This document shows positions 6,543 to 44,741 of a stretch of DNA of 64,000 nt, in pieces; the stretch's first letter is position 1; every line of letters starts with the position of its first letter. The notes beneath the pieces were generated by a model. That model was not told the DNA's origin and searched no databases. It was given only the letters and a program-made list of their open reading frames with translations. A program made the position numbers and the translations under genes. The DNA is taken from the NCBI GenBank assembly GCA_903869265.1, contig CAIPYE010000017.1, positions 186,001 to 250,000 of the forward strand, written 5' to 3'. Source of the stretch: an uncultured delta proteobacterium. Its GTDB lineage: Bacteria > Desulfobacterota > Desulfobulbia > Desulfobulbales > Desulfurivibrionaceae.

Positions 6543-7384
6543 TATTTGATGCAATATAGTGTGTAACTGATCATCATCAGCCACAGCAGGCTGACGGAAA
6601 GGAGCACCTTGTCCTGGAGTAGCGCTTCGGTGGGGTCGCCGGTGGCATCCTTTATGACCCGATACATATACCGGAATAGCCCGAAACAGCAAAGAGGAAT
6701 CGTGTAGAGCAGGCCAGGGTGGACCACGACATACATGGCATAGGTGACCAGAACGGTGGCGCCGGTCATGTACATGGTTCCGTGGAGAAAATTGAGGGGG
6801 TATTCCTCAAGCACCGGGCGGTGATGGGCGCACCCTTCTTGGAGTAGTTGTTTTTCCGCGATGCGTTTGCCAAGGCTGAGAAAGATGGAGAGTAGGAAAA
6901 CGGTCAAAAAAAGCCAGTCGGAGATGGGGATATTAAAGGCGATGCCGCCGGCGTGCAGACGCAGTAAAAAACCTGCAGAGACGCAAAAGATATCCACCAC
7001 CGGGATATCTTTGAGTCGAAAGCTGTAAGCCGAAGAGAGGAGCATGTAGCCCAGCAGGGTGAAAAAAAATGGCATGGAAACGGTGAAGCCCAGCGCCAGC
7101 GCCACAATAAAGAGGCAGGCGCCTACCGTGAAGGCGGTTTTGGCCTGAATGGCGCCGGAGGGGATGGGTCGATTTTTTTTCACCGGATGGCAGGCGTCTT
7201 TCTCCGCATCCAGCACATCGTTGATCGCATAATTGCCGCTCGAGGCCAGGCAAAAGGCCAGGAAAGGGATGGCAAGATGTAGGAAGACTTCGGGCGCAAA
7301 AAGCACCCCGCCAAAGAGCGGCGGAAAGAGGAGCATCAGATTTTTGAGCCATTGCCTGGGGCGCAGAAGCCGGAGAAAGTTCAT
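6542..7384 (-). CDS. UbiA-family prenyltransferase, decaprenyl-phosphate phosphoribosyltransferase-like
   Basis: The 280-residue multi-spanning protein carries the prenyl-diphosphate/Mg-binding motif NDVLDAEKDACHPVKKNRP at about residue 55, the UbiA Asp-rich motif. The RPRQWLKN opening and the HPxKxxRPI variant are those of the subgroup related to mycobacterial DPPR synthase, which moves phosphoribose onto a polyprenyl phosphate. Bacterial glycan clusters often carry such genes to make a lipid-linked pentose donor. Here it lies between a GT-C/TPR protein (ATGA overlap) and the flippase (TAATG overlap). A polyprenyl-phospho-sugar donor for the periplasmic GT-C enzyme is my inference. Confidence 0.84.
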   Translation of the reverse strand: MNFLRLLRPRQWLKNLMLLFPPLFGGVLFAPEVFLHLAIPFLAFCLASSGNYAINDVLDAEKDACHPVKKNRPIPSGAIQAKTAFTVGACLFIVALALGFTVSMPFFFTLLGYMLLSSAYSFRLKDIPVVDIFCVSAGFLLRLHAGGIAFNIPISDWLFLTVFLLSIFLSLGKRIAEKQLLQEGCAHHRPVLEEYPLNFLHGTMYMTGATVLVTYAMYVVVHPGLLYTIPLCCFGLFRYMYRVIKDATGDPTEALLQDKVLLSVSLLWLMMISYTLYCIK

Positions 7385-9120
7385 GTTCCACCCTGCTGGT
7401 TGCGTACAAGCTTGGCGGCGAAGGGCCGGTACTCATGGTCGGGGGGCATGTGGCTTAAGGCTTGTTTCCAGTATTCTCTGGCCTTCTTCGTCTTGCCCGC
7501 GGCGTGGAAGGCCTTGCCGAGCTGGTAAAGCGTCATGGGGTCCTTGTTTTTTTTGAAAAGTGCGAGACCTGCCTCTTCGAGGGCAAGAAGGTGTCCTGCT
7601 GTCGAGATATCCTGCGGATGCTGATAAATATAGGCCGTGTGGATTTCTATCATTCCCTCCAGAGCGCTCTGGGAGTCTTTTTTGCTGCGCTGGTAAGCCC
7701 TTGCGTAGGCTACAAGCGCTTCTTCGGTTCTGCCAAGTCGGAAGAGGCTTTCGCCCATGAGGTTGTCGGCGTCGGGGTTATAACCGAGCATGGGGGTGGC
7801 GGCTGCCCGTTGTGCCACGGCAAGGGCCTTTTCCGGTTGGTCTGAGCTGAGAAGGGCTGAGCTGTGGAGTGCCAGGATCGTTCGGTTCCCGTCCGATTGT
7901 ATCGCGGTATCCTCAAGCAGTGCCAAGTTGGTCTGCCAGAGCAGGTTTCTCTGGAAGGTGGTCACGGCAAAGAGGGTGATGATGCCTCCGAGTGCAATTT
8001 TGCCGATGGTCGCTGGCATTTTGGGTGCAATGTGTTTTGCGGCAAAAAGGCCAGCGGCCAGGGTGACGAAGATCGAGGGCAGATAGAGGTAGCGTTCAGC
8101 ATAGGGCATCCAGGCGATTTGGCCCATGGCGATGGTAAAGGCCGGGGCAATAAGGAAAACCCCGGCAAGAAAAAGTGCGGACAGGAGAGAGCGGTTCCAG
8201 AGCAGAACAAGGCAGAAGCCTAGCAATGGAAATGCGAGCAGTTCGTACAGGGGATCCACCCCGTCGATGGCGAAGTTGAGCGGCCAGGGGTAGAAGAGTT
8301 TTTTCATATAAAATCCTAAGGCCCGGAAGACGGTGAAAATGCCGAACTGGGGATTGTTTTGAAGGATTTTGAGAGAGAGTCCGATCTTGCCATAGTTGGA
8401 AGAAAAGGCGAAGGAACGCATCAGGAAAAAGAGAAGGAGAACGAGGCAACCGAGGCCTATAAACAGGGCGATCCTTTTTTTCCGGACGGAGACGCTTTCT
8501 TCCATTGTTCCATGGGGAGCAAGGAGCAACAGCAGCGCGCCGGGAAGAAAGGTGAGGGCCACTTCCTTGGAAAGGACTCCGCCGAAAAAAGCAAGGAGTG
8601 CCAAAGCCAGGGAAAGAGAGGCGCGGTTCTCCCTAAAGCGCAAGATGAAGGAGGCGCTGAGCAGCACGAAAAAGGCGGCGAGGATGTCCGTCCGCCCGGA
8701 GATCCAGTCCACGGATTCGGTGACAAGCGGATGAAATCCCCAGAGAAGGGCCAGTGCCAGGGGCAGGAGCCTCTCCTTTTTTTCTGTCGGATCAGTGGCG
8801 AATTGGGGAGCAAGCTGGGAGGCGATGCGGAAGACCAGCAGGGTGTTGGCCAGATGCAGGAGCACATTGACCAAATGCATCCACGCGGGATCAGGGCCGA
8901 TGAGTTTGAGATCCAGAAGATAGGAGGCGATGGTCAGGGGGCGATAATAGAGGCCGCCGCCATTGCCCGGGAAAAAGATGGACTTGAGGTTCCAGGGATG
9001 ATTGAGGCAGGCCGCGAGCATATCGCGGTCATCGACCACGCTGATTTCCCCAAAGATCACCGGAAAGAAAACGAGCAGGACGGCGGCGATAATGGCGAGA
9101 ATTTGCGCACGCTTTGTCAA
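7381..9120 (-). CDS. Membrane GT-C-like protein with C-terminal TPR repeats
   Basis: The 579 residues start with about ten transmembrane segments. A periplasmic acidic motif (VVDDRDM) falls just after the first segment, followed by LYYRPLTIASYLLD. This resembles GT-C glycosyltransferases of the TMTC/PMT type, which use polyprenyl-phosphate sugars. Residues about 400-579 form tetratricopeptide repeats (for example YNPDADNLMGESLFRLGRTE and MTLYQLGKAFHAAGKTKKA). It overlaps the ABC ATPase stop and the UbiA start by four bases each. A periplasmic glycosyltransferase using the UbiA product is plausible but unproved; the TPR domain could instead bind a partner protein. Confidence 0.75.
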   Translation of the reverse strand: MTKRAQILAIIAAVLLVFFPVIFGEISVVDDRDMLAACLNHPWNLKSIFFPGNGGGLYYRPLTIASYLLDLKLIGPDPAWMHLVNVLLHLANTLLVFRIASQLAPQFATDPTEKKERLLPLALALLWGFHPLVTESVDWISGRTDILAAFFVLLSASFILRFRENRASLSLALALLAFFGGVLSKEVALTFLPGALLLLLAPHGTMEESVSVRKKRIALFIGLGCLVLLLFFLMRSFAFSSNYGKIGLSLKILQNNPQFGIFTVFRALGFYMKKLFYPWPLNFAIDGVDPLYELLAFPLLGFCLVLLWNRSLLSALFLAGVFLIAPAFTIAMGQIAWMPYAERYLYLPSIFVTLAAGLFAAKHIAPKMPATIGKIALGGIITLFAVTTFQRNLLWQTNLALLEDTAIQSDGNRTILALHSSALLSSDQPEKALAVAQRAAATPMLGYNPDADNLMGESLFRLGRTEEALVAYARAYQRSKKDSQSALEGMIEIHTAYIYQHPQDISTAGHLLALEEAGLALFKKNKDPMTLYQLGKAFHAAGKTKKAREYWKQALSHMPPDHEYRPFAAKLVRNQQGGT

Positions 9121-9881
9121 TGGCTGCCCTTTCTTACGATTTCAAGGAAGAATTTTTCCAGGCTCTGTTGCGCTGAATCTCCGGGGGAGAGTTCCGCGTC
9201 GGGCGTCATGATGGTCTCAACCCGTTCGACGCACTGCAACCTCCCTTGGAGGATGATCCCCACCCGGTCGCAAATCGCCTCCGCATCGCTGGTGATGTGG
9301 GTGCTGAAAAAGACGCATTTGCCAGCGGCCTTCAGTTCCAAGATGATTTCTTTGACCAGGGCTCGGCCAATGGGGTCGAGGCCGCTCATCGGTTCGTCGA
9401 GGATGTATACCTGCGGGTCGTGGAGCAGGGCCTGGGCCAAGCCGAGCCGTTGGGTCATGCCCTTGCTGTAAGTACGGATTGGCCGTTGCCGTGCCTCCCA
9501 GAGATCGAGGCGGTGAAGCATTGCCTGGGAACGCTCATGCAGCATGGGGCCGGTCATGCCAAACATTTTACCCGTGAAGTTCAGGTATTCCTCGGCGGTC
9601 AGGTAATCATAGAATGACGGATTTTCCGGGAGATAGCCAACGTTGCGCCTTGCGGTATGGGAGCTGACCGGTATCCCCATAATCGAGGCTTGGCCGCCAG
9701 TGGCTCGGATCAGACCCATCAGGATCTTGATGGTGGTGCTTTTGCCCGCGCCGTTTGGCCCGAGGAAGCCAAAGACCTCGCCTGGAGGGATGGACAGTTG
9801 TAATCCTTGCAACGCCTCCACCGACCTGCCGCGTTTCCCCTTGAAGGTTTTTGAGAGCGCCTCAATAGTGATGGCATCCAT
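9117..9881 (-). CDS. ABC transporter ATP-binding protein
   Basis: A complete nucleotide-binding domain of about 254 residues: Walker A GPNGAGKST, signature YSKGMTQRLGLAQALL and Walker B VYILDEPMSGLDP. It belongs to the ABC-2 export type and should pair with the permease two genes upstream. The start at 9881 follows AAGGA by 7 bases. An earlier ATG at 9923 overlaps the TPR gene stop as ATGA and may also be used, adding 14 residues. As I recall, Geobacter sulfurreducens has an ABC exporter gene (xapD) in the polysaccharide cluster behind pilA. This gene is in a comparable position. Confidence 0.92.
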   Translation of the reverse strand: MDAITIEALSKTFKGKRGRSVEALQGLQLSIPPGEVFGFLGPNGAGKSTTIKILMGLIRATGGQASIMGIPVSSHTARRNVGYLPENPSFYDYLTAEEYLNFTGKMFGMTGPMLHERSQAMLHRLDLWEARQRPIRTYSKGMTQRLGLAQALLHDPQVYILDEPMSGLDPIGRALVKEIILELKAAGKCVFFSTHITSDAEAICDRVGIILQGRLQCVERVETIMTPDAELSPGDSAQQSLEKFFLEIVRKGSH

Positions 9882-9919
9882 GGTCGTTTCCTTGGGTAGA
9901 GTAGAGCGATTCATCGCGT

Positions 9920-10774
9920 TCATTTGGCGTTGTTGCTTGGCAGGGCGGCGAACTTGCTGGTGGTGCGCACCCGGCCCGTATTATCCAGATAAAAGGTGCC
10001 GCCGTAAGGATCGATGACAGGCGTGGCAAGATAGCCGGCCTGGGCTATTTCCTCGATTGTCTTGGCTGGCCGACCCAGATCGCGGAGAAAGGCTGCCTGT
10101 GCGTCTTCAATGCGTTTGACTGCCATGAAGGCTGTCAAACGCAGATCGAAGGATTTTTTGATCGTCTCGTTGCGGGCGCCAGCTTTCATGGTCTGCAGAT
10201 AGGCGATGGCCAGGCCCGTTTGATTGGCCTCGTACATGTACCGGCTGGCCAGCCGGATGAAAAGATCGGAACCGGTCAGCTCCCCTGCCCTTTTGTAGTA
10301 GAAAGTTGCCTTGTCGTAATCTTTTAGAAAGTACGCATGGTTGAAGCCGGCGAAAAACGGCAGGTAGAAATCCCAGGTCCGGTACTGCATGCCGTAATCA
10401 AGCAGCGCATTGGCCTCGTCGATGCGCCGCATGTCCCATACCAAAATGGCCTGGGCAAAGTAATAGGCATCCATGTTGTAAGGGTCGAGCCGGGTGGCGG
10501 TCTTGATCAGGGGGTACATGCCTTGGAAATCATGGACGATGTCCTGGTGCTGCTGGGCTTTTTCCAGGGAGGTGCCGTAATAGATGAGCACCTTGAGCAC
10601 CTCCAGCGCGCCGAATATCTGCTTCTGGTCGGCGGTGACAAAGCGCATGACTGCGGGCTGGGGGCTGACCCCGACGCGTTGGACAAAGGGCCGCTCCTGC
10701 ATGTGGCGGGCGACCGGTGCCAGCAGGCAGAGGAGAAACGCCGCGCATAATGTCAGGGATAAGGCCTGCTTCAT
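9920..10774 (-). CDS. TPR-like protein with N-terminal membrane anchor
   Basis: The 284-residue protein begins with a signal or anchor segment (MKQALSLTLCAAFLLCLLAP). The rest is helical-repeat sequence resembling tetratricopeptide units (NMDAYYFAQAILVWDMRRID, FNHAYFLKDYDKATFYYKRA). A C-terminal tail, VIDPYGGTFYLDNTGRVRTT, looks like a small beta element of the kind seen in pseudopilin ends. It lies 3 bases after the permease and overlaps the ATPase by 4 bases. It is therefore probably an accessory periplasmic component of the export system. I do not recognise a specific family. Confidence 0.75.
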   Translation of the reverse strand: MKQALSLTLCAAFLLCLLAPVARHMQERPFVQRVGVSPQPAVMRFVTADQKQIFGALEVLKVLIYYGTSLEKAQQHQDIVHDFQGMYPLIKTATRLDPYNMDAYYFAQAILVWDMRRIDEANALLDYGMQYRTWDFYLPFFAGFNHAYFLKDYDKATFYYKRAGELTGSDLFIRLASRYMYEANQTGLAIAYLQTMKAGARNETIKKSFDLRLTAFMAVKRIEDAQAAFLRDLGRPAKTIEEIAQAGYLATPVIDPYGGTFYLDNTGRVRTTSKFAALPSNNAK

Positions 10775-10777
10775 GGT

Positions 10778-11569
10778 CTAATGCAGCTCGCGTCTGGTAA
10801 ACAGCATCGCGGCGGCGGAAAGCAGCAGGCCGCAGTAGGCAAGGCTGTATGCCAGCGGCAGCAGAATCCCGTTGGCAGGGAGGGGGATGCTGTAAACGGC
10901 ATTTGCCTTGAGATCGAACACTGCAAAATTGGGCAGCAGGTAATACAAAAATAGGGCGATCTGTTTGGTCAGCGCTGGCAGGGCAGCCCCCGCAGGGGTT
11001 TGCAGGTAGTCGTAGACCTCCTGGGTGACGTTGCCGCCAAGAAACAGGGTGATGGTGCCAAAGATGGGCAGAAAAAAAGAGGTGCTCACCGTGGAGAAGA
11101 GAAAGGACACCGCCACCACCATAATGTACTTCAGGCAGTCAAAGGTAAGGGCCATCAGGATGTTTGTCCAAAGAATTGGACGTGCTGGCGGATCGGTCAG
11201 AGAAACATACCAGATGGTGGCGGAAGCCAAGAGCCCCAGCACCAGAGAGATCAGCAGCAGAAACCCGGCGATGCCGAAGAATTTGCCCAGCAAATAATTG
11301 GTCCGACTGATGGGCAGCCCCAGGACGCTATAGATGGAATGTCGGTCGATATCTTTCCAGAGGGCCGTGCCCCCGCAGAATATCGCGATCAGCAGCAGGA
11401 TGAACGAGGTAAGGGAAAGGGAAAGGGTGATGGCAAGTTCCCCCACCTGCCGCATGGACAGAACGCTGACCGAAGGGATGAACAGAAAAATGCCGGTCGC
11501 CACCAGGATTCCTTGCAGGATTCGGTCGCGGAGCAACCCCTTCCAGGTAATGAGTATCAGGTGGTGCAT
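10778..11569 (-). CDS. ABC-2 type transporter permease
   Basis: About 263 residues with six hydrophobic segments and an N-terminal MHHLILITWKGLLRDRILQG. This is typical of the ABC-2/NatB-type permease family that partners cytoplasmic ATPases. The start at 11569 follows AAAGGACCC with good spacing; the in-frame extension upstream has no such site. It is the first gene of the polysaccharide operon and lies just past the hairpin terminator of the pilin unit. I find no convincing separate promoter in the short gap, so read-through from the pilin promoter is possible. The substrate is unknown, perhaps a polysaccharide or lipid-linked sugar. Confidence 0.86.
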   Translation of the reverse strand: MHHLILITWKGLLRDRILQGILVATGIFLFIPSVSVLSMRQVGELAITLSLSLTSFILLLIAIFCGGTALWKDIDRHSIYSVLGLPISRTNYLLGKFFGIAGFLLLISLVLGLLASATIWYVSLTDPPARPILWTNILMALTFDCLKYIMVVAVSFLFSTVSTSFFLPIFGTITLFLGGNVTQEVYDYLQTPAGAALPALTKQIALFLYYLLPNFAVFDLKANAVYSIPLPANGILLPLAYSLAYCGLLLSAAAMLFTRRELH

Positions 11570-11624
11570 GGTGGGTCCTTTTGATGTGAGCCAGGAGCAG
11601 GGGGAGCGATTTTGGTGAAACGTC

Positions 11625-11658
11625 AAAAGAGGATTGCCGTTTCCGACAATCCTCTTTT
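11625..11658 (-). terminator. Hairpin terminator of the pilin unit
   Basis: A 12-bp stem (AAAAGAGGATTG at 11625-11636 with its complement at 11647-11658) encloses a 10-base loop. It is T-rich on both sides and lies 50 bases past the secreted-protein stop. It should end or attenuate the pilA transcript before the ABC permease. It is nearly symmetric and could work in both directions. Confidence 0.72.
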
Positions 11659-11709: not shown

Positions 11710-12060
11710 TTACTTTGTTGCAGTAAAGCCATCAGCAGCCAAACTGGTTTCTGATGCGGGCACTACAACGCCTTTCAGGGTGGAAGTGGTGCCAACGGTT
11801 GTGCCAGCGTCAACGCCGTGGAAAAAAATACTGGTGTTCGTGGAAACGATGCCGTAGACCTCCGTGCCCTGTGTATGGCCAGACATGGCGGAATAGGTTG
11901 CACCTGAGTTCGAGAGAACCCCAAGGGATACGCTTTTCGAGGGGCTGAAAGCGACGGTTCCTAGAGAGGTGGCGGCGCCAATGGTCCCGGCGAGGGCACT
12001 CATGGGCACGGCCAAGCAGCCCGCGATGGCCAACAGTATAGTCAGAGAATATTTTTTCAT
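11710..12060 (-). CDS. Small secreted protein beside the pilin, candidate PilA-C/Spc-like partner
   Basis: This 116-residue protein has a clear Sec signal (MKKYSLTILLAIAGC, cleavage probable after SALA at residue 24). The mature part is about 92 residues with no cysteine, rich in Ser, Thr, Gly and Ala, and looks all-beta. The start at 12060 has a strong AAGGAGA site; the longer in-frame extension covers the pilin gene and is false. It follows pilA by about 50 bases. In Geobacter the short N-terminal pilin is followed by a secreted partner (Spc, also called PilA-C) that forms the globular part of the pilus. The mature pattern (HTQGTEVYG, then TSIFFHG) is the kind I recall for that family. The identity is an inference from position, size and pattern. 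A lipoprotein reading (IAGC) is less likely. Confidence 0.6.
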   Translation of the reverse strand: MKKYSLTILLAIAGCLAVPMSALAGTIGAATSLGTVAFSPSKSVSLGVLSNSGATYSAMSGHTQGTEVYGIVSTNTSIFFHGVDAGTTVGTTSTLKGVVVPASETSLAADGFTATK

Positions 12061-12109: not shown

Positions 12110-12310
12110 TTAGATAATCGGATATACCTGGTTGTCGGCAAAGGAAACTTCCATGCCGGTCTTGAAGTTCCGCAGGTCGCTGATGGCTGCCGAGTTGAAG
12201 GCCCGCTGCCGATAGGCTGCGAACTGCGGGATGGCGATGGCCGCCAGGATACCGATGATCGCGACAACGATCATCAGCTCGACCAGGGTGAAACCTTTCT
12301 GATTGTTCAT
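12110..12310 (-). CDS. pilA: Type IV major pilin, short Geobacter-type PilA-N
   Basis: The precursor is 66 residues (MNNQKG leader, cut before F1) and the mature pilin only 60, far below the 130-160 of ordinary type IVa pilins. The N-terminal helix [20 protein letters not shown] has Glu5 for assembly. Aromatic residues are F1, F24, Y27, F32, F43, F51 and Y57. All six aromatic positions of the G. sulfurreducens pilin, as I remember it (F1, F24, Y27, Y32, F51, Y57), are aromatic here, and F43 is extra. The C-terminal globular domain is missing, as in PilA-N. The start has an AAGGAGCG site, and a sigma-54 promoter lies upstream. It is the first gene of a two-gene unit with the secreted partner. 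Whether it conducts or only assembles cannot be judged from sequence. Confidence 0.93.
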
Positions 12311-12394: not shown

Positions 12395-12410
12395 TCCAAT
12401 TTTCGTGCCA
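12395..12410 (-). promoter_or_regulatory. Sigma-54 (RpoN) promoter of pilA
   Basis: Read on the minus strand, TGGCACG-AAAA-TTGGA fits the consensus TGGCACG-N4-TTGCA. The -24 element is perfect, the -24/-12 spacing is correct, and one base of the -12 GC is altered. Transcription would start near 12384, giving a leader of about 74 bases before the pilin ATG. The divergent regulator has the GAFTGA motif needed for sigma-54 activation. Confidence 0.82.
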
Positions 12411-12825: not shown

Positions 12826-14385
12826 ATGCGGGTTTGGAATTTGAAGGTACAGACGATTCTAGTCTTTTTTCTGGTTCTCGGGGTTGGCATGTTACTGGTG
12901 AACGCCGTGTCCCTGCAGCTCTGGAAACGACAGGCCTTGCATGCAGATCTGGATCATGCCCGCACCCTGCTTGTGGCCATGGCCCGGCTTGGGACCAATG
13001 GTGGCGGAGAAGAGCGGTTCAAGGCTGATATCGCGCAGGTATTGCAGTCGGATGAGGCGATTTTGTGTTTCGGTTCGGCAACCGCACTGGGTAAAACCAT
13101 CAACATCTCCCCGGGGTGTGAAGATTTTGCCAAAGCTCTGGAAATTTCCCTGGCGAATGCCGCGCATTCTGGAGTCGAGTACAGCCGCCTTCTCCCCCCT
13201 CATGAGGTTGATGGTTCAGCCCAGCGAAATAATGTGGTGATTATTGCGCAGCCTTTTCGGTCCCCGGATGGGGCAAGGGGTGCTCTGGCCATGGTCCGTT
13301 CCACGGAACCGATCAATGCGCAGTTGTGGGAAAACGAAAAGATCATCCTGGCCTATATTCTTGCCAATGCGGTGGTGCTTGCGGTTGTCGGTTTTTTCCG
13401 TATGGTTAAGCTCGTTGTCCGCCCCCTGGAGCGCCTTGCCGAACAGGCGGACACCTATTCTCTCCGGCATGATGTTTTGCCTTTTCCGGGGCGTACGGGG
13501 AATGAATTTGGGCGTCTTTCTTCAAGCTTGAACCGGATGATCGCGCAACTTGAAGAGGATCGGGCAGCACTTCATCAGAAAGTGGACTCGCTGAAGTTTG
13601 CAAACGAGGAATTAGGTCGGAACCGACGGGAGATGGTCAGGGCGGAAAAGATGGCATCCATAGGCAGGCTGGCCGCCGGGCTTGCCCATGAGATTGGGAA
13701 TCCGCTTGGCGTTGTGCAAGGATATCTGGATCTTCTTGGGCAAGTGGGTTTATCCCCTGAGGAAAGGAAGGAGTTTGCAGGGCGTGCGGAAAAGGAAGTG
13801 GTGCGTGTGGGCAGGTTGATCAGGCAGTTGCTCGACTATGCCCGACCTGTTGACAGCGCCCCTGCTTCGCTAAGGGTGGGAGTGCTTTTGGCGGAATGTC
13901 TAGAGCTGCTTAGTCATGGAACAGTTCCTGGCCACATAGAGTTTTCTTTCAGCTCGGAGGTGGAGGAAGATCTGGTGTTGGCCGATGCCGACGGCATGCG
14001 CCAGGTTTTTGTGAATTGTTTAATGAATGCGGTTGATGCCGTGAGTGGACTTCCGGAAGGGAAGGTCGCCGCGCGATGTTGTAACGGAGAGGATGGAAAT
14101 CGGCGATATATTCGGGTTGCTATCGAGGATAACGGTCCGGGAATTGCAAAAAAACATCTCGAGAGCGTATTCGAGCCTTTTTTTACAACCAAGGAGCCGG
14201 GCAGAGGCACAGGACTTGGGTTGGCGGTGTCCTGTGCGCTCGTTGAGAATTGGGGAGGGAGGATGTGGGCTGAAAGTGGGCGGTCTGATGCTGGTGGGGG
14301 GGCTACCATCTGGATTTCGTTGCCCTTGGTTGTTTCTGCGGGTGGGGGGGATTTTCCGGCGGACAATGGCATGGCGGCGGGATAG
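12826..14385 (+). CDS. pilS: Sensor histidine kinase, PilS-like (NtrB class)
   Basis: The 519-residue kinase has a first membrane helix (about 8-30), a periplasmic sensor region (about 31-170), a second helix (about 171-193) and HAMP. A dimerisation/phosphoacceptor domain follows with His288 in LAHEIGNPLG, then a HATPase domain ending near residue 510 (DNGPGI, GRGTGLGL). It starts with ATG after GGAGG. It should phosphorylate the sigma-54 regulator encoded immediately downstream. The name rests on its place beside pilA and pilR. Its topology, two helices around a periplasmic domain with no PAS domain, differs from the six-helix PilS of Pseudomonas. The signal sensed may therefore be extracytoplasmic rather than pilin level in the membrane. 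Confidence 0.8.
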   Translation: MRVWNLKVQTILVFFLVLGVGMLLVNAVSLQLWKRQALHADLDHARTLLVAMARLGTNGGGEERFKADIAQVLQSDEAILCFGSATALGKTINISPGCEDFAKALEISLANAAHSGVEYSRLLPPHEVDGSAQRNNVVIIAQPFRSPDGARGALAMVRSTEPINAQLWENEKIILAYILANAVVLAVVGFFRMVKLVVRPLERLAEQADTYSLRHDVLPFPGRTGNEFGRLSSSLNRMIAQLEEDRAALHQKVDSLKFANEELGRNRREMVRAEKMASIGRLAAGLAHEIGNPLGVVQGYLDLLGQVGLSPEERKEFAGRAEKEVVRVGRLIRQLLDYARPVDSAPASLRVGVLLAECLELLSHGTVPGHIEFSFSSEVEEDLVLADADGMRQVFVNCLMNAVDAVSGLPEGKVAARCCNGEDGNRRYIRVAIEDNGPGIAKKHLESVFEPFFTTKEPGRGTGLGLAVSCALVENWGGRMWAESGRSDAGGGATIWISLPLVVSAGGGDFPADNGMAAG

Positions 14386-14394
14386 GAGATGAGC

Positions 14395-15765
14395 ATGGGT
14401 GATGCCGGGCGATTGCTGATTATCGATGATGAAGAAAGCATGCTGGAAATGCTTTCCATTGTTACCTCCAAGGCTGGATATGAGGTGACCCTCGCCAGAA
14501 ACGGGGAGGAAGGCCTCATCGCTCTGGGTAAAGGGGATTTCCCCCTTGTTCTGTGTGATTTGAAGATGCCCCGTCTTGATGGGATCGGGTTTCTGGAAAA
14601 AGCCAGGGAGCTGGGCTTTGATGCGCCTATTATTATGATGTCCGCCTATGCCGCTATTGAGGATGCCGTGGCCGCGATAAAGGGCGGTGCCTATGATTTT
14701 ATCACCAAGCCTTTTAAGGCGGATGAAGTGCTCCTGACCCTGATGAGGGCTGCGGAACATATGCGGTTACGCCGGGAAAATCTCCTGTTGCGCCGCCAAA
14801 TCGATGAGTTGCAGGTTTCGCAGGGGCTTGGCGGGATTGTCGCGCAAAGCCCGGTCATGATCGCTTTTCTCAAGACCGCTTCCAGGGTCGCACAGTACGA
14901 TACAACGGTTCTCATCACCGGAGAGAGCGGCACCGGCAAGGAGTTGTTGGCACGGGGCATTCATGCCCAAAGCAGTCGGGCGCACAAGCCATTTTTGGCG
15001 GTTAATTGCGGGGGAATGCCGGAAAATCTTCTGGAAAGCGAGTTGTTCGGGTATGTGAAAGGCGCCTTTACCGGTGCGGAAAAAGACCGGAAGGGGATTT
15101 TTCAGGAGGCTGAGGGCGGGACGCTGTTTTTGGACGAGATCGGCGAACTCCCAGTCAATGCCCAGGTGAAATTGTTGCGGGTCCTGCAGGAACGGGAGGT
15201 GCGGCCCGTGGGCGGAGCACGAACAGTGTCGGTCGATGTGCGGGTGCTGGCGGCGACAGCCCGTGATTTGCAGGAAGAGGCGAAGGCCGGTGCCTTCCGC
15301 GAGGATCTTTTTTTTCGGTTGAATGTGATTCCCTTGCATGTTCCGCCGCTCCAGGAGCGGAAGGAAGATATTCCGCTTCTGTGTGTGCATCTGCTCACCA
15401 AGATCGGTAAGAGGTTCGGGAAAAGCGTTCCGGAGTTGTCTCCGGCCGCATTGGCGTTGCTTTTGCATCACCATTGGCCTGGAAATGTGCGGGAGTTGGA
15501 GAATGCCCTGGAGAGGGCCGTTGTGCTTGCAGATAAAATTATCCTGCCTGAACATCTGCCCGAAAATCTGTTGGAGCAGGAATCAAAAAATTGCCTGGAG
15601 GGAGTGTTGGGAACATTTTCACTGAAAAAGGGGCAGCGTGAGATGGAAAGGGTTTTGATCAGGCGCGCCCTGGACGCAACCGGAGGCAACAAGAGCAAGG
15701 CAGGCCTCCTGCTCGAAATCAGTTATCCTTCCCTGTTAAGTAAAATGAAAGAATATGGTTTCTAG
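14395..15765 (+). CDS. pilR: Sigma-54-dependent response regulator, PilR-like
   Basis: The 456-residue protein has three domains: a receiver with phospho-acceptor Asp55 (LCDLKMPRLDG), an AAA+ sigma-54 activator domain and a Fis-type helix-turn-helix. The AAA+ domain has Walker A GESGTGKE, the sigma-54 contact GAFTGA, and Walker B GGTLFLDEIGEL. The C-terminal helix-turn-helix is in GGNKSKAGLLLEISYPSLLS. The start at 14395 uses TAGGAG with six-base spacing; an ATG six bases earlier overlaps that site. It follows the kinase by 9 bases. Phosphorylated protein would bind the upstream dyad/GTGTC block and open the pilA sigma-54 promoter. As in Geobacter, it may also control other surface genes. Confidence 0.88.
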   Translation: MGDAGRLLIIDDEESMLEMLSIVTSKAGYEVTLARNGEEGLIALGKGDFPLVLCDLKMPRLDGIGFLEKARELGFDAPIIMMSAYAAIEDAVAAIKGGAYDFITKPFKADEVLLTLMRAAEHMRLRRENLLLRRQIDELQVSQGLGGIVAQSPVMIAFLKTASRVAQYDTTVLITGESGTGKELLARGIHAQSSRAHKPFLAVNCGGMPENLLESELFGYVKGAFTGAEKDRKGIFQEAEGGTLFLDEIGELPVNAQVKLLRVLQEREVRPVGGARTVSVDVRVLAATARDLQEEAKAGAFREDLFFRLNVIPLHVPPLQERKEDIPLLCVHLLTKIGKRFGKSVPELSPAALALLLHHHWPGNVRELENALERAVVLADKIILPEHLPENLLEQESKNCLEGVLGTFSLKKGQREMERVLIRRALDATGGNKSKAGLLLEISYPSLLSKMKEYGF

Positions 15766-16075: not shown

Positions 16076-16603
16076 ATGAACCATCTGGGAAGGGCCATAT
16101 TTTCAAAGCGGGAAGGCGGGTTTACCTTGGTCGAATTGGTGGTTACGATCGCTATCCTCGCTATACTTGTGGCGATTGCCCTGCCGCAATTCTCCGCGAT
16201 GATGCGGAATGCGGAATTGCGCGGCGCGGCGCGGGTTCTCACCTCAACCCTGCAACGGGCGCGCAGCGAGGCCATAACCAGGAAGATTGATGTCGGGGTC
16301 GAGTTTACCACCACACCCAACGCCACAACATTGGGCGGCAGTTATCGGATGTACCTGGACGCTGACAACAATGGAAGCTGTGATGCCGGAGAAACGGTGT
16401 TGGAGCAGAGAAATGTCCCCGCAACCGTAGCCCTGTATTCCTCCATCTTTGCAACGGGCAGCGCCCGATATGACAGCCGGGGGCTTGCCAACGGCGCTGG
16501 CAGTATCAGGTTGGCCAACCTCACCCCCATGTATTACAAGATAACGGTTTCCACCACCGGCAATGTGCGGATACAAAAATCATCAGACGCAGGCGCCATA
16601 TGA
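16076..16603 (+). CDS. fimT: Minor pilin, FimT/GspH family
   Basis: The 175-residue prepilin has a cleavage site in KREGG-FTLVELVVTIAILAILV, with Glu at +5 and the hydrophobic helix. The C-terminal half matches the GspH/FimT pseudopilin layout (AELRGAARVLTSTLQRARSE, then a beta-rich domain). It would act with the other minor pilins to prime pilus assembly and to carry PilY1 at the tip. The ATG follows GGAG with suitable spacing. The next gene overlaps its stop as ATGA. It is the first gene of the fimT-pilW-pilV-pilX-pilY1 operon. Confidence 0.9.
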   Translation: MNHLGRAIFSKREGGFTLVELVVTIAILAILVAIALPQFSAMMRNAELRGAARVLTSTLQRARSEAITRKIDVGVEFTTTPNATTLGGSYRMYLDADNNGSCDAGETVLEQRNVPATVALYSSIFATGSARYDSRGLANGAGSIRLANLTPMYYKITVSTTGNVRIQKSSDAGAI

Positions 16604-17400
16604 CCAGAGGATTGTCGTCCCACAAAAGGAGCCTTTTTGTGCCCTGCGGCGAAAATCGTGGATTTTCCCTGGTTGAGCTGCTCATTGTAATGCTCATGTC
16701 CGGCGTGGTCATGGGGGCAATCTACAATATTTACAGTTCCCAGCAGAAGGCCTACTCCTCCCAGGAGCTTGTCGCCGAAACCCAGCAAAACTTCCGGGCT
16801 GCGATCACCGTGATGGGCAGGGAGATCCGGCTGGCTGGCCATCGGGATCCTTCGACTGTCGCCGATGTTCCGTCCACGAGCACCGATTGTCTCGTCGCCC
16901 CGGGCGTGTGTATTGGCTCCGGCGCCAGCCAGCTTGTTTTCACCTATTTTGACACCACGGCCACGGACAATGCGGTTGATTATGACGGTGACGGGGTTCT
17001 TCACGGGGTACAAGGCCCCAGCGAACTGGTCAAGGTCACCTATGATCTGTACGACGCCTATGGCGCTGGGGTTAGCGATGATCTTGGCCGGGCGGTTGGC
17101 GCCGGGAACAGGGTACCAACGGTTTTGAATATCCATGGGCTTCAGTTTCGCTATCTCCTTGATGATGGTGTCGGAGGTTTTACCTTTGCGCCTGTTGGAA
17201 CGGTGGTGAGTGCCGGAAACATGCGGAGCGTACGCGGGGTTGAGGTGACGATTCTTGCTAAAAGCTCGGGGGTGGACAGGAACTATGCAGTTGCCCCGTC
17301 CTTTACCGCCCCTGGGCCGGGACCAACCTGGGTGCTTCCCACCGGGGTTCGGGGCCGGATGTTCTCTACAACCATCATGTGCAGGAACCTGAGTATATGA
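16600..17400 (+). CDS. pilW: Minor pilin PilW-like
   Basis: The 266-residue prepilin has the cleavage region CGENRG-FSLVELLIVMLMSG and the PilW-family helix continuation (SSQELVAETQQNFRAAITVM). The leader is longer than usual at about 25 residues. A beta-rich C-terminal domain follows. Acidic repeats such as DYDGDGVL at about residues 127-134 resemble calcium loops. It overlaps fimT by four bases and pilV by four bases. PilW belongs to the minor-pilin subcomplex that initiates type IV pilus assembly at the inner membrane. Confidence 0.86.
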   Translation: MTRGLSSHKRSLFVPCGENRGFSLVELLIVMLMSGVVMGAIYNIYSSQQKAYSSQELVAETQQNFRAAITVMGREIRLAGHRDPSTVADVPSTSTDCLVAPGVCIGSGASQLVFTYFDTTATDNAVDYDGDGVLHGVQGPSELVKVTYDLYDAYGAGVSDDLGRAVGAGNRVPTVLNIHGLQFRYLLDDGVGGFTFAPVGTVVSAGNMRSVRGVEVTILAKSSGVDRNYAVAPSFTAPGPGPTWVLPTGVRGRMFSTTIMCRNLSI

Positions 17401-17789
17401 GCCCACAAGGATTGACCGGCAATGAGAAGGGCTTCACCCTGATCGAGGTGATGGTCGCCATTACCATTCTGGCAATCGGACTTCTGGCTGTGGCTGCGAC
17501 CCCCGTCATGGTGATGTCGGGCAACAACAGGGCGCAGCGGATCACCGAGGCCTCTTTCGGGGCGATGGACCGCTTTGAACAGTTGATGATGTTGGATAAC
17601 TCCGCAGCGGATCTTACCTCCGGCAACCATTCCGCCACAGTAACCCAGGGGGGGCTGACCTATACCGTGAAATGGGTCGTCACCGATTTGGACAGCTCGC
17701 GGAAGCAGATCGACGTCACCGTACAGTGGAGCGAAGGCCTGCTTACCAAGCAATACCAGTATGCCTATTACAAAACGGATTTCATGTAG
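17397..17789 (+). CDS. pilV: Minor pilin PilV-like
   Basis: The 130-residue prepilin has cleavage in NEKG-FTLIEVMVAITILAIGL and the PilV-type short C-terminal domain. The start is set by the ATGA overlap with pilW at 17397; a slightly longer upstream frame overlaps pilW coding sequence. It lies between pilW and pilX, the usual order of minor-pilin operons. It should join the pilus-initiation complex and help present PilY1. Confidence 0.88.
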   Translation: MSPQGLTGNEKGFTLIEVMVAITILAIGLLAVAATPVMVMSGNNRAQRITEASFGAMDRFEQLMMLDNSAADLTSGNHSATVTQGGLTYTVKWVVTDLDSSRKQIDVTVQWSEGLLTKQYQYAYYKTDFM

Positions 17790-17798
17790 GTGGAAGGG

Positions 17799-18284
17799 AT
17801 GAATATTTTTAAGGTGGGCAAGGGGGAAGATGGCTTTGTGCTGGTGGCGGCATTGCTGATTATGCTGATCCTCCTTCTCTTGGGCGCGACCTCCCTGAGC
17901 AATACCAATGTCGAGCTGAAGATCGCCAGTAATACACGGGAAATGGTGCAGGATCTGTATGTGGCCGAAACGAGCTGGCAGGAAGGGGCCAATTGGATGC
18001 TGAGCTATTCCAAGCCGCCTCCGGACGCCAATGTCGGGGTGGAAACAGCTAATGTGCGGAATTTTGGCAACGGCGGCATCGATGTGGTGAACAACACCTT
18101 TCCCGCTGGCACCCAGGATGGCACCCTGGGTGGGGTTCCGTACTGGTACAAGGTTGCCTATCGTGAAGATCACCCGAGCCCGGGCAGCAGCAAGGATTAT
18201 CGGGATTATTACTACACTGTCACCGGCAATGCCAATCGGGCGCAGGAAATCGAAACCGTTGTCCGTGTGGTTTACGGAAAATGA
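17799..18284 (+). CDS. pilX: Minor pilin PilX-like
   Basis: The protein is 161 residues from ATG 17799. A GTG nine bases upstream is also in frame, and the purine-rich bases between fit a ribosome site for the ATG. The N-terminus GEDGFVLVAALLIMLILLLL is the PilX-N signature: a prepilin-like cleavage region followed by a long hydrophobic helix, but without the usual Glu at +5. That absence is characteristic of the family, where the residue is often not conserved. It ends just before pilY1 and should form the tip subcomplex with the other minor pilins and PilY1. Confidence 0.85.
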   Translation: MNIFKVGKGEDGFVLVAALLIMLILLLLGATSLSNTNVELKIASNTREMVQDLYVAETSWQEGANWMLSYSKPPPDANVGVETANVRNFGNGGIDVVNNTFPAGTQDGTLGGVPYWYKVAYREDHPSPGSSKDYRDYYYTVTGNANRAQEIETVVRVVYGK

Positions 18285-18340
18285 CCATGGCCGCAGTCGT
18301 GGCTGATGGCAAAGAACTGCAAGGAACAGTGAGGTGCACC

Positions 18341-21300
18341 ATGAAATATCGAATCGCTGGGAAGATCGTTGCGGCCTGTATTTTGGTTTTGCTTTCTGCC
18401 GCCTTGTGTGCTGCGGATACGTTGCGCGTCCAGGTCGTTTCTAGCACCGATGATGCCCAGGAGTATCTTCAGGCCGGGTGTAGCGGTTCGAGGGCCCTGG
18501 GGCAAGTTCTCCGGGGCGATAATTATCTGGAGTTTGGCAAAGACGATTGCACGTCAACCCCTGCCACCCTGATTGGCTTGCGTTTTACCCTCCAAAACAT
18601 TCCGAGGGGTGCGCAAATAACCGCAGCCCATCTTGAACTGGTCGAGGACAATGCATCCTGCGGCGGGGGCATTGACTGGACCGTGCGTGGCGAGAATGTC
18701 GATAATGCCGCGACCTTCGGCAGCGCCAATTTTTCCATTTCCAGCAGAAAAACAACGAATCCCACCACCGCCTCTGTAAACTGGGCCAACGATAAAGATG
18801 TCTGTAACGGCAAAAATAGCAGAACGACCATCTTGGGCCCTGACATCAAAGCCATTATCCAGGAAATCGTCAACCGGGCGGGCTGGTCGACGGTTGTTCC
18901 CTACACCGATTCCCTTGCGCTGTTTGTCAGCGGCACGGGCCGCCGCAATGTGTATTCTTACGACCAGAAATCGTCAAGAGCCCCCTTGTTGCATATTGAG
19001 TATCTGCCCGTTGCTGCTCCAAAGATCAGCGTCGATCCCGTCAATCTGGGGATTTCTTCCTTTCAGGGAACCAACCCCGTTGCTGGCTCTGTTACTCTGA
19101 CCAATACCGGAAACGCCAATCTGGTATATACCATTACCGATGATGCTTCCTGGCTTTCTGTTTCCCCGGCAAGCGGCACCCTGGCTGCTGGAGCCAGCCA
19201 GACCCTGGCAGTCACCTATACCACCGCAGGCCTTGTCGCCAGCAGCTACGCCGCAACGATCACCATTACCGATCCCAACGCCACCAACTCCCCGCTGGAT
19301 ATCCCGGTGAGTCTCACGGTGCAACCGGCGCCGCATAGCAGCGCCTGCGGCGAGGTTCCGCTGTATACCGAAAATCTGGTCAACCCGGCCATTCTCATCC
19401 TGCTGGACATCTCCGGCAGCATGACAACCCTGATGGATCTGGTAGACTCGTCAACCACGGTTAATACAACGCCGGATGTGGGAAATATTGTTCAGGAGAT
19501 TGTCAACCGGGGAGGCTGGGCCGCACTCAACCCGATGAATTTTATCCTTACCGGAAATGGCAGCGGCAAGCGGCAGGCCAGATCCTATGATAATTCTGCG
19601 GCATACGCGCCTGTGTTGACTGTGAGCTATATTAGCTCGGATGACAGCATACGATACGACAATGTGGAATTCCCGGTGGTGCGTTCCAAGGATGATGCCT
19701 ACCAGTCGTCCGGCGGCACCATGTATCTCACAAACACGACGCTCCAGATGGGAGGGAGCTACACCACTGGGCTCCGGTTTGATGCGGTGGATATTCCGCC
19801 GAACTCCACAATCTTGAATGCAAGTATCCGTTTTGTGCCCGCCTTTTCCGATACTATCGCCACCACTGTGACTGTCTACGGGGAGGCTGCAGACAGCGCG
19901 GCAATCTATAGCACGGCGGCAAACAATATCACCGGCCGGACGAAAACGACCGCCAGCGCGAGTTGGGCCATCCCGAGTTGGTCGCCCCCCACCCAGGAAT
20001 CACGGCTCAAGATCGCCAAGGATGTCTTGAGCAAACTGGTGGCGGATCGCAGCATCGCTTGGGGTTTCGGCTCCTGGACAGGCAACTACAGCAGCTCCGA
20101 CCCAACCCATTACACAAAGGTGCATACGGGCTGCAAGTTCAACGATGATCCCCACCAGACCAAATTGCAGACCTCAATTGCCAGCGTCAGCGCTGCCGGA
20201 ACCACGCCGCTGGTGCCGGCAATGCAGCAGGCCCAGGCATACTTTGCCGGAACCAAGGCGGACCTTGAGGGGGCGTATTATGTACCCCTTTCATGCCAGC
20301 CGAAATTCCTCATCCTGATCACCGATGGCCTGGGCAATCTGGATACCGACTTGCCTGGGGTCACCACCGAGGCGGGTAAACTGGCCGATCAAAAGATCAC
20401 CACCGTGACCATCGGTTTTGGTCTTGACGATGCAACCCAGCTCAACGAGATTGCCAAAATCAGCAACCAGCGGGGCGAGGCTGTTGCCGATGATGACCTC
20501 TATGCCATGCATGACGAGGTTGCCGGCGTGGGCGTACCCTTCCTTGCCCAGAATAAGACTGCCTTGGAGGATGCCCTCCAGAATGTTACCACCAATGTCA
20601 AGGCGCAGGTGTTTTATGGGTCCACCCCGGCGCCCACCACCTCCGCCGGGCGGGAAGACCTGATTGTCAACGCCCAGTTCAGTGCGGGGGGCTGGACCGG
20701 CGACCTGATCTGCACCAATCTAGACACCAAAAATGCCCAACTCGGCACGCAGAAATGGAAGGCGTCCACTGTTATGCCGGTTACCAAGAAGGCCTATACC
20801 GTTACCGACCTGGTTACGAACGCCGTGGTTCCCTATACCGATGCCACCCTGGCCAGCGACAATTATCTTTGCAAGTCTCTGGGCGATATCATCAATTCGA
20901 CTCCGGTTATTATTGATCCGCCGACCCATTATTACCCGTTCAATAACTACGCCGCATTCAGAACTTCGCAAGCCAAGCGAAACACCATAATTTATGTCGG
21001 CTCCAACGATGGCGCTCTCCATGCCTTTAAGCTGGACGATGGCGTTGAGCAATGGCGGTTTTACCCCAACAGCATCCTTGCCAAGCTCAATGAGGCGAGC
21101 GACCCCACCAAGAATATGTGTTCTGCCGAGTTCTGCCACCGGTATCTGGTGGATGGCTCGCCCATCGCTGCGGACATCTATGACGGTAGCAAGTGGAAAA
21201 CCGTGTTGATGACCGGTTTGCGGCGAGGCGGTGCCGCGTATTTCGCCCTTGATGTCACGGGGGGCAGGCCGTTTGACGCTGTTGCTGTAGATCCGCTTAA

Positions 21301-22441
21301 TCCGGATAACAGGGTGAAATATCTCTGGCAGTTCACCGACAGTCAGCTTGGCCAGACCTGGGCGCAGCCGGAGGTGTACCGGGCCGGGGTCAAGAGTTCG
21401 ACTGATACAGTGTGGGCCGTTTACTGGGGTTCGGGCTATGCCGAGGATGTTCTCAATCAACCGAATAAACAGGCATACCTTTACGGAGTGGAGGCCAATG
21501 ATGCATCTGTTCCTTTATGGAAAGACGCCACCGGGGTTGCCACCAACAGGATCAAGCTCCCCTCTGCGGCATCCACCTTGATGGACGATGCCTTGGGAGG
21601 GGTGGTGGTTACCGAGATGAATGATGATTACCGGGGAGACAGGCTGTACACCGGCAATCTCTACGGAACCATGTACAGAGTGACCAATATCGGGAAAAAT
21701 GAGACTCCTCAGGTCTCCACCCTGTTCAGCTTCAATCGCGGCACTCCGGATCATTCAACCCCCATCAGGGTAAGACCATCCGATGCCTACTATGCCGAAA
21801 ATATTACCTGGCTTTATTTCGGTACTGGGAGCTATGAGGTGCAGGCCGACAAGACAACCACTGCTATGCAGTACTTCTTCGGCCTGCGGGATGATACCAC
21901 CTACCCCAGTTATAGCCTGGCCACACTGCCGATTTTCACCACCCCCACGGTAACGAATGCTGCGACCGGGAAGGATTTTCGTGTAATCTCGGGGAGCGCT
22001 CCTGGGCCGGCGCCATATTCCTGGGCGCTGGAGTTGGATAACCGGTTGGTTTCCGGGGGGGCATCCGAGAGGGTGATCAGTGACGCACTGGTCGTGGGCG
22101 GGGTGGTTTTTTTCACCACCTTTACCCCTGCGGCTGATGTCTGCGAGGGAACCGGCCAGGCGTGGCTGTTTGCCCTGGATTACACCACCGGCAAGCCTCC
22201 GGCGAAGCCGGTATTTGATATCAACGGCGACAAAACTTTTGACAGCAAGGATATGATCAAGGATGCCAGCGGGAACACATATTCGGTCGCAGGCATCTAT
22301 TTGGGAGAGGATATTGCCTCCAATCCGGTTCTGCTCAAGGACGTCATTGTCGTTGGCACCAAGACAGGGGGGACCGAGACATTTAAGGTGAATCTCCCCC
22401 GAACGAAACCAGCAATGCGCTCTTGGTGGGAAAACCCTTAA
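18341..22441 (+). CDS. pilY1: PilY1-type tip adhesin with VWA domain, inserted repeat domain and propeller
   Basis: The protein is 1366 residues with a Sec signal. Residues about 25-225 form a DNRLRE/disaggregatase-related-like domain, then an Ig-like segment about 230-330 (SWLSVSPASGTLAAGASQ). A von Willebrand A domain starts with the MIDAS motif DISGSM at Asp356. It is interrupted by about 185 residues resembling the first domain in rearranged order, then resumes at about 553 (KLVADRSIAWGFGSW) with the remaining MIDAS parts TTPLVPA and LITDG. The C-terminal half is the PilY1 propeller (IIYVGSNDGALHAF) with a calcium-loop motif DINGDKTFDSKD near the end. The start at 18341 has GAGGTG; a frame 20 codons longer lacks a signal peptide. 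It should sit at the pilus tip and control retraction or adhesion. Confidence 0.9.
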   Translation: MKYRIAGKIVAACILVLLSAALCAADTLRVQVVSSTDDAQEYLQAGCSGSRALGQVLRGDNYLEFGKDDCTSTPATLIGLRFTLQNIPRGAQITAAHLELVEDNASCGGGIDWTVRGENVDNAATFGSANFSISSRKTTNPTTASVNWANDKDVCNGKNSRTTILGPDIKAIIQEIVNRAGWSTVVPYTDSLALFVSGTGRRNVYSYDQKSSRAPLLHIEYLPVAAPKISVDPVNLGISSFQGTNPVAGSVTLTNTGNANLVYTITDDASWLSVSPASGTLAAGASQTLAVTYTTAGLVASSYAATITITDPNATNSPLDIPVSLTVQPAPHSSACGEVPLYTENLVNPAILILLDISGSMTTLMDLVDSSTTVNTTPDVGNIVQEIVNRGGWAALNPMNFILTGNGSGKRQARSYDNSAAYAPVLTVSYISSDDSIRYDNVEFPVVRSKDDAYQSSGGTMYLTNTTLQMGGSYTTGLRFDAVDIPPNSTILNASIRFVPAFSDTIATTVTVYGEAADSAAIYSTAANNITGRTKTTASASWAIPSWSPPTQESRLKIAKDVLSKLVADRSIAWGFGSWTGNYSSSDPTHYTKVHTGCKFNDDPHQTKLQTSIASVSAAGTTPLVPAMQQAQAYFAGTKADLEGAYYVPLSCQPKFLILITDGLGNLDTDLPGVTTEAGKLADQKITTVTIGFGLDDATQLNEIAKISNQRGEAVADDDLYAMHDEVAGVGVPFLAQNKTALEDALQNVTTNVKAQVFYGSTPAPTTSAGREDLIVNAQFSAGGWTGDLICTNLDTKNAQLGTQKWKASTVMPVTKKAYTVTDLVTNAVVPYTDATLASDNYLCKSLGDIINSTPVIIDPPTHYYPFNNYAAFRTSQAKRNTIIYVGSNDGALHAFKLDDGVEQWRFYPNSILAKLNEASDPTKNMCSAEFCHRYLVDGSPIAADIYDGSKWKTVLMTGLRRGGAAYFALDVTGGRPFDAVAVDPLNPDNRVKYLWQFTDSQLGQTWAQPEVYRAGVKSSTDTVWAVYWGSGYAEDVLNQPNKQAYLYGVEANDASVPLWKDATGVATNRIKLPSAASTLMDDALGGVVVTEMNDDYRGDRLYTGNLYGTMYRVTNIGKNETPQVSTLFSFNRGTPDHSTPIRVRPSDAYYAENITWLYFGTGSYEVQADKTTTAMQYFFGLRDDTTYPSYSLATLPIFTTPTVTNAATGKDFRVISGSAPGPAPYSWALELDNRLVSGGASERVISDALVVGGVVFFTTFTPAADVCEGTGQAWLFALDYTTGKPPAKPVFDINGDKTFDSKDMIKDASGNTYSVAGIYLGEDIASNPVLLKDVIVVGTKTGGTETFKVNLPRTKPAMRSWWENP

Positions 22442-44729: not shown

Positions 44730-44741
44730 TGCTTGCCTCCT

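Follow-up and report, generated by a model that had tools for sequence, protein, structure and literature searches.

Short pilins rich in aromatic residues are often taken as evidence of conductive pili. A gene for such a protein, pilA-N, lies at positions 12110 to 12310 on the minus strand of the 64,000-nt stretch of DNA analysed here (the window), and it raises the question of whether its product forms a conducting fibre by itself or is one part of an ordinary pilin.

The gene encodes, at 12113 to 12310, a type IVa prepilin of 66 aa, with the leader MNNQKG and a mature part of 60 aa. In its translation, aromatic residues occur at F1, F24, Y27, F32, F43, F51 and Y57 (7/60, or 11.7%); the frame, length and aromatic fraction given in a preliminary description of this DNA were thus all right. 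The Pfam N_methyl model matches with 46.2 bits (cut-off 21.2), and a phmmer search of the PDB retrieved "geopilin domain 1" chains as best matches (7tgg_A, E = 9.4e-27; 9egp_A, 4.9e-26; 2m7g/6vk9, 4.7e-24), as expected from the claim that this is a Geobacter-type short pilin. GGAG ribosome-binding sequences precede the start codons of both pilA-N and the next gene. Together, the N_methyl score, the geopilin matches and the GGAG sites argue that pilA-N is no chance reading frame, and the protein has the makings of a short pilin: about 60 aa when mature, a class III leader and an N-methyl helix. When aligned to PilA-N, the 2m7g chain shows aromatic residues at positions 1, 24, 27, 32 (Y), 51 and 57 and a leucine at position 43. 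The preliminary description had all G. sulfurreducens aromatics kept plus one extra; the extra residue is real, but it is F43 and not Y57, the latter being common to the G. sulfurreducens protein.

The gene that follows, pilA-C (11710 to 12060, minus strand), begins 49 nt after pilA-N and encodes, at 11713 to 12060, 116 aa with a signal-peptide-like start. Pfam and NCBIfam searches with PilA-C gave no match, and the window protein alone retrieved the "Geopilin domain 2" chain 9egp_B weakly (phmmer, E = 0.0085). A profile was then built from six PilA-C neighbours (A1: the window, G023, G020, G021, a Thermodesulfovibrio MAG and a Geobacteraceae MAG). This profile found the known PilA-C chains 9egp_B (3.2e-11), 7tgg_a (2.7e-5) and 6vk9_D (0.034). 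Relatives of PilA-C are 23% to 30% identical to the window protein, which lacks the W..L end seen in four of the five A1 relatives (the fifth sequence being truncated where its contig stops). The gene beside pilA-N thus specifies a secreted-looking homologue of geopilin domain 2. AlphaFold modelling gave low confidence for PilA-C and for a one-piece pilin (mean pLDDT 48.5 and 46.1). A strong hairpin, terminator-like in both directions, follows pilA-C at 11625 to 11658 on the minus strand (-23.7 kcal/mol; z -4.8; 0/200 shuffles as good); a consensus scan did not call it.

A separate secreted-looking reading frame follows the short pilin in each of the ten other short-pilin loci that were read. 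Five of these carry a second PilA-C subtype with a WTWMGG-like tail, which is assigned by position and motif, since only two of the five exceed 10 bits with a profile of the mature domain (13.7, 11.1, 9.5, 5.8 and 5.1). In locus L005, from a Geobacteraceae MAG, two short pilins stand in tandem (2127-2306 and 2519-2716) ahead of pilA-C. The arrangement in the window resembles the PilA-N/PilA-C pair of Geobacter (GSU1496/GSU1497; PDB 7tgg, 6vk9, 9egp), with a short pilin of similar length and an adjacent secreted geopilin-domain-2 protein, and PilA-N keeps K44, E48, D53 and Y57, residues conserved in truncated pilins according to an excerpt of PMC5174107. It differs in having F32 rather than Y32, R30 rather than K30 and the additional F43, and in belonging to a different order of bacteria.

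The same domain was recognized inside longer pilins. When residues 61 onward of 164 distinct pilins were scored with the mature-only PilA-C profile, 32 C-terminal domains exceeded 10 bits, as compared to 0/820 shuffled sequences (best, 9.0); seven of the 32 stand under locus identifiers that the PilA-C profile itself had fetched. The 32 are mostly from Desulfobacterota, the rest coming from Nitrospirae, Zetaproteobacteria and Mariprofundaceae loci; the top beta/gamma pilin reached 3.7 bits. The domain scores above 10 bits in the C-terminal half of 10/13 one-piece pilins from the genus of the window genome (the others being G005, 8.2; G010, 6.6; and G006, -1.4; the pilins of G002, G012 and G013 fall outside the 13). 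The alignment has a shared core, S/G..V and Y.A.SKH..G...YG..SD.T..Y. In the one-piece PilA proteins of the genus and family (for example L025, from MAG HGW-Deltaproteobacteria-3; G004; G008), the first 28 residues are in most cases identical to those of the window and the aromatic positions are in most the same; however, theirs is one mature polypeptide of 182 to 225 aa, as opposed to two genes in the window.

Judged by these profile matches, PilA-C is homologous both to geopilin domain 2 and to the C-terminal half found in one-piece pilins. The presence of the domain in the latter indicates that the window encodes as two genes what the one-piece pilins of its family join in a single protein. 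We put at about 85% the probability that the type IVa major pilin is split here into two pieces, PilA-N and PilA-C, with pilA-N encoding the N-terminal half. Homologies, gene order and genome content carry this reading; from them we infer co-assembly, regulation, exchange and function. The lack of a globular domain, which the preliminary description had treated as a property of the fibre, most likely means that the globular half comes from the neighbouring PilA-C homologue gene.

Genes on the plus strand beside the pilin pair are those of a pilus locus. A PilS-type sensor kinase (12826-14385; HAMP, HisKA and HATPase domains) and a PilR-type sigma-54 response regulator (14389-15765), both named from position, are 75-77% and 77-90% identical, respectively, to copies in G001, G007, G008 and G015. 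They are followed by a FimT/GspH-like minor pilin (16076-16603; GspH PF12019, over cut-off), by PilW-, PilV- and PilX-like minor pilins (16600-17400, 17379-17789 and 17790-18284), by a PilY1-type tip protein with VWA and beta-propeller parts (18281-22441; PF05567, 88.5 bits, and PF00092, 33.3 bits, both over cut-off) and by a PilB/TfpB-type assembly ATPase (22943-24751; PF00437, 415 bits, over cut-off; NF053534, 634 bits, and TIGR02538, 510 bits, both under cut-offs). The PilW-like protein scores 21.3 bits, under the cut-off of 26, and PilX_N 27.8 bits, over the cut-off of 25.5; the PilV-like gene is named by position. The minor pilins and PilY1-type protein are 69-78% identical to those of G004, whose pilin is one-piece (69% for the FimT/GspH-like, 72-77% for the three other minor pilins and 78% for PilY1).

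On the minus strand lie an ABC transporter permease (10778-11572; PF12679), a 284-aa protein with a signal-like start and no Pfam match (9920-10774) and an ABC transporter ATPase (9117-9923; PF00005). In a gene-order comparison of 20 stretches and five named loci, a subset of the relatives, these three genes accompany both long and short pilins of the order, in varying gene order. A fourth minus-strand gene (7381-9120) encodes a TPR/PMT-like membrane protein, a candidate glycosyltransferase by a PMT_2 match below cut-off (E = 0.0032), which among the loci compared turned up next to the split pilins of G020, G021, G023 and a contig of G010 and nowhere else. It is a candidate pilin glycosylation enzyme. 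Locus L005 differs from the window in being without the TPR/PMT-like neighbour and in that none of the ABC and 284-aa genes was seen beside it.

A sigma-54-like site, TGGCACGAAAATTGGA, is found on the minus strand at 12395 to 12410, 118 nt before the codon for the mature F. Ahead of the one-piece pilins of G001, G004, G007, G008 and G015 the sequence is TGGCATGAAAATTGGA, at 115-119 nt, and G011 has a one-base variant of TGGCATGAAAATTGGA before its one-piece pilin. A near-identical site thus precedes the one-piece pilins in six of the seven same-genus genomes looked at; it is absent at that place in G016, of the same genus, and in G018, of the family. Across the window the sigma-54 pattern is no rarer than chance (2 found, 3.1 expected), and weaker matches (8-10 of 11) lie upstream in 22/22 loci scanned, shuffled sequences attaining them in 0-28% of trials; consequently, the evidence for the site is its place and exact letters rather than the match count. 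Among 13 relatives, G004 is the closest to the window in the upstream region (identity 0.80 over 79 columns), the other 12 ranging between 0.48 and 0.70. With the gene of a sigma-54 regulator nearby, the site is a candidate pilA promoter on which PilS/PilR and sigma-54 may act.

In each of the 16 other same-genus genomes searched, the best or second-best match is a long major pilin (open frames of 166-244 aa). One of these, G010, has a short-pilin contig besides its long pilin; over 5980 bp this contig shares 99.88% identity with G023, which belongs to another genus, and the bin has a contamination rating of 7%, so G010 was left out as a further instance of a split pilin. In a phylum-wide draw, the PilA-C profile matched 22/395 genomes: 14 with a separate PilA-C beside a short pilin, seven with the domain inside a one-piece pilin and one unclear. 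Genome G017 encodes pilins of both kinds, short on C130 and one-piece on C148. The latter, L127 (G017:C148), has a C-terminal half matching the window PilA-C and is followed by a second, divergent one-piece pilin.

A tree was made from 22 split and 31 one-piece pilins; it is based on 173 columns, and 21 of its 50 inner branches are left open. Four of the split rows, here and in the aromatic counts below, represent the second PilA-C subtype and were assigned by position and motif; L011, with an N in its PilA-C, was dropped from both tree and counts, and L127, with a cut 5' end, from the one-piece aromatic counts, which therefore comprise 30 of the 31 rows. The window groups with the split pilins of G023, G020 and G330 in a starred set of four (99/84), with G021 next (84/88); these relatives are from other genera and one other family. 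The one-piece pilins of the window's own genus lie apart from it, in a separate 25-row set (95/96). The fewest changes of pilin state on it number three; a single origin, one old split with differential loss, is also conceivable.

How might a split pilin have come to lie in a genus of one-piece pilins? Codons 1-28 of pilA (12209-12292, minus strand) show a DNA identity of 0.87-0.95 in 13/13 relatives, regardless of pilin kind. Over codons 29-60, identity to the window is 0.69-0.76 with four split relatives of the window type, 0.57 with the second-subtype G017 and 0.46-0.60 with eight one-piece pilins. Same-codon identity in codons 1-28 is 0.67-0.85 against seven same-genus genomes, and in four of those it is 0.52-0.70 for pilR and 0.63-0.66 for pilS; the higher value in pilA hints at recombination, although the comparison comprises 27 codons and the codon bias of a highly expressed gene may also explain it.

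Fission of a pilin gene into PilA-N and PilA-C is already published as the origin of the Geobacter pair (excerpt of PMC5174107), and the split in the window could have arisen likewise, in place, from the lineage's own one-piece pilin; the promoter-like site and first 28 codons common to the genus' one-piece pilins would fit such a history. This is unlikely, however, as from codon 29 the DNA resembles the four split relatives more than the eight one-piece pilins, the tree groups the window with split pilins from other genera and from one further family, and the TPR/PMT-like gene nearby was confined to split pilins among the loci compared. Since the two-piece cassette occupies the place of the sisters' one-piece pilin, it was most likely gained by exchange rather than by fresh fission in the window lineage, and its replacing a one-piece cassette under the old promoter would be the simplest reading. 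The broader proposition has about even odds of being correct: one- and two-piece major pilins would be interchangeable cassettes of a single pilus machine, and within this genus of sulfur bacteria the former would have given way to the latter through recombination at the conserved 5' end of pilA, with promoter, PilS/PilR and minor pilins undisturbed. Next to the published fission, what is new is a likely exchange of one pilin for two within a single genus under a conserved promoter.

Turning to conduction, a rule for e-pili quoted in a section of PMC7399161 calls for at least 9.8% aromatic residues, gaps of at most 22 and aromatics at positions 1, 24, 27, 50/51 and 32/57. The window PilA-N has the published density and positions. 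Under a strict test in which aromatics at 1, 24, 27, 32, 50/51 and 57 were all required, 18/22 split pilins, 23/30 one-piece pilins and 0/48 pilins from beta/gamma- and unspecified proteobacterial loci passed; with the looser published rule, the numbers were 22/22, 23/30 and 7/48, respectively. As 23 of 30 one-piece pilins share the "conductive" positions, the aromatics say little on conduction. We reject the pattern as a mark of short pilins; among the proteins compared, it is this branch of pilins that it marks. An aromatic residue at position 43 occurs in 8/22 split and 0/30 one-piece pilins, F43 thus not being unique to the window. Position 32 is Y in 11 of the 22 split pairs, F in seven (the window included) and Q in four; an excerpt of PMC5174107 describes Y32 as typical of truncated and F32 as typical of full-length pilins. 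An e-pili aromatic distribution has already been described in a Desulfobulbaceae PilA from the groundwater cable bacterium MAG Dsb_1MN (passage in PMC6976610), which is of the same wider group as the window genome but is another genome (3.1 Mb, 57% GC).

Whether PilA filaments conduct is disputed in the literature. In the part of a 2026 review that deals with them, solved G. sulfurreducens pili contain as much PilA-N as PilA-C and are poor conductors, 7TGG being a type IV pilus of this composition; a passage of PMC9207759, in contrast, calls the Geobacter PilA-N/PilA-C filament a mutant-strain artefact and argues for conductive PilA e-pili. In line with the latter, PilA-N alone might form a thin conductive e-pilus for extracellular electron transfer, PilA-C acting only as chaperone. 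The sequence rule for e-pili and the cytochromes and porin described below speak for this possibility; the one-piece pilins that pass the same positional test, the equal proportions and poor conduction of the solved pili, and the distribution of MtrB-like genes speak against it and make it improbable. The aromatic set is weak evidence for a conductive fibre.

The electron-transfer genes are as follows. At 42690 to 45641 on the minus strand, a decaheme DmsE/MtrA-family cytochrome (238 bits; cut-off 192) is followed by an MtrB/PioB-family porin (182 bits, below the cut-off of 240, although the match spans its full length); the two are candidates for an outer-membrane electron conduit. The 64-kb window showed no further reading frame rich in CXXCH. 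Elsewhere in the genome (G000:C15:458000-462300; L208 10932-14220), adjacent MtrA-like cytochromes with 26 and 16 CXXCH motifs, much longer than the family model, stand beside an NHL-repeat-like protein. MtrB-family matches occur in 24/58 relatives (10 over cut-off). Within the genus they occur in 13/17 genomes, 12 of them with one-piece pilins, hence in 12/16 of the other same-genus genomes; among the split-pilin genomes of the panel they occur in 3/8. Conduit genes and pilin type are therefore not linked here. An extracellular-electron lifestyle, which the preliminary description took to be suggested by the pilin beside Dsr-type sulfur metabolism, is plausible on account of the MtrA/MtrB-like pair and multiheme cytochromes; MtrB-like genes do not track the split pilin. 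The window also encodes DsrM, DsrK and DsrP, each scoring above its NCBIfam cut-off.

The rest of the genome (2.82 Mb, about 1% missing; window GC 54.9%) was searched for the machinery of the pilus. Over cut-off were PilM (286 bits), PilB (757 bits) and two PilT-type ATPases (455 and 369 bits); PilO (139 bits), one prepilin peptidase and one T2SSF protein were also present, a PilP-like gene scored 23.8 bits, under the cut-off of 25.6, and PilN was not identified in the genome. The sole intact secretin found passes the MshL cut-off (258 bits) and not that of PilQ (135 bits). It lies in the pilus cluster (G000:C14:83800-85700; L214 6843-8651) with two separate AMIN-domain reading frames upstream, where a single PilQ might be expected. 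PilB, PilT, a PilC-type platform, PilM, PilO, a secretin and a prepilin peptidase are thus all in the genome, as befits a type IVa pilus. The split pilin is the only major-pilin candidate among the genome's four pilin matches, and none of the four is a one-piece major pilin. A decayed type II secretion locus (G000:C14:155000-157000; L211) contains a whole gspG (TIGR01710, 179 bits) and GspE matches in three frames that run into a secretin fragment; no intact GspD/E/F set was found in the genome. With pilus genes present and this locus broken, one intact type-4 filament system was found. Loss of type II secretion might have accounted for a secretory pilus, but the split relatives G020, G021 and G023 keep 3, 2 and 2 secretin matches. 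That PilA-N is a pseudopilin of type II secretion is very improbable and was rejected, for despite its weak GspG resemblance (TIGR01710, 43.9 bits; cut-off 88.85) and the whole gspG-like gene elsewhere, assembly and retraction genes are present, no intact type II system was found, the only intact secretin scores best as MshL with one T2SSF protein and a GspE divided among three frames, and the window pilin sits with PilS/PilR-type genes, minor pilins, PilY1 and a PilB-type ATPase.

We thus favour a two-piece major pilin, which could work in the following manner. Prepilin peptidase would cut PilA-N, whose hydrophobic helix would hold it in the inner membrane; PilA-C, exported by its own signal peptide, would dock on PilA-N and replace the missing globular domain. 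The PilB/PilC/PilM/secretin machine would polymerise the heterodimers, with PilT able to pull the filament back; minor pilins resembling FimT, PilW, PilV and PilX would be part of it, along with a PilY1-type tip. Expression of the pilA-N/pilA-C operon would be driven by PilS/PilR and sigma-54. Most likely such a filament is a retractile pilus of the ordinary kind, serving adhesion or secretion, and not an electrical conductor.

The host is a sulfur-metabolising relative of cable bacteria whose main pilus protein is most likely in two pieces, as in Geobacter, while that of its sister species is in one. The occurrence of one-piece pilins in most close relatives, which have MtrB-like genes and the same aromatic positions, together with the globular partner of the short pilin, argues against inferring conductivity from the short pilin. 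Matched species pairs allow the effect of pilin splitting to be tested. If pilins are indeed exchanged as cassettes, the sister species would constitute a natural experiment on the effects of such splitting, electron transfer included.
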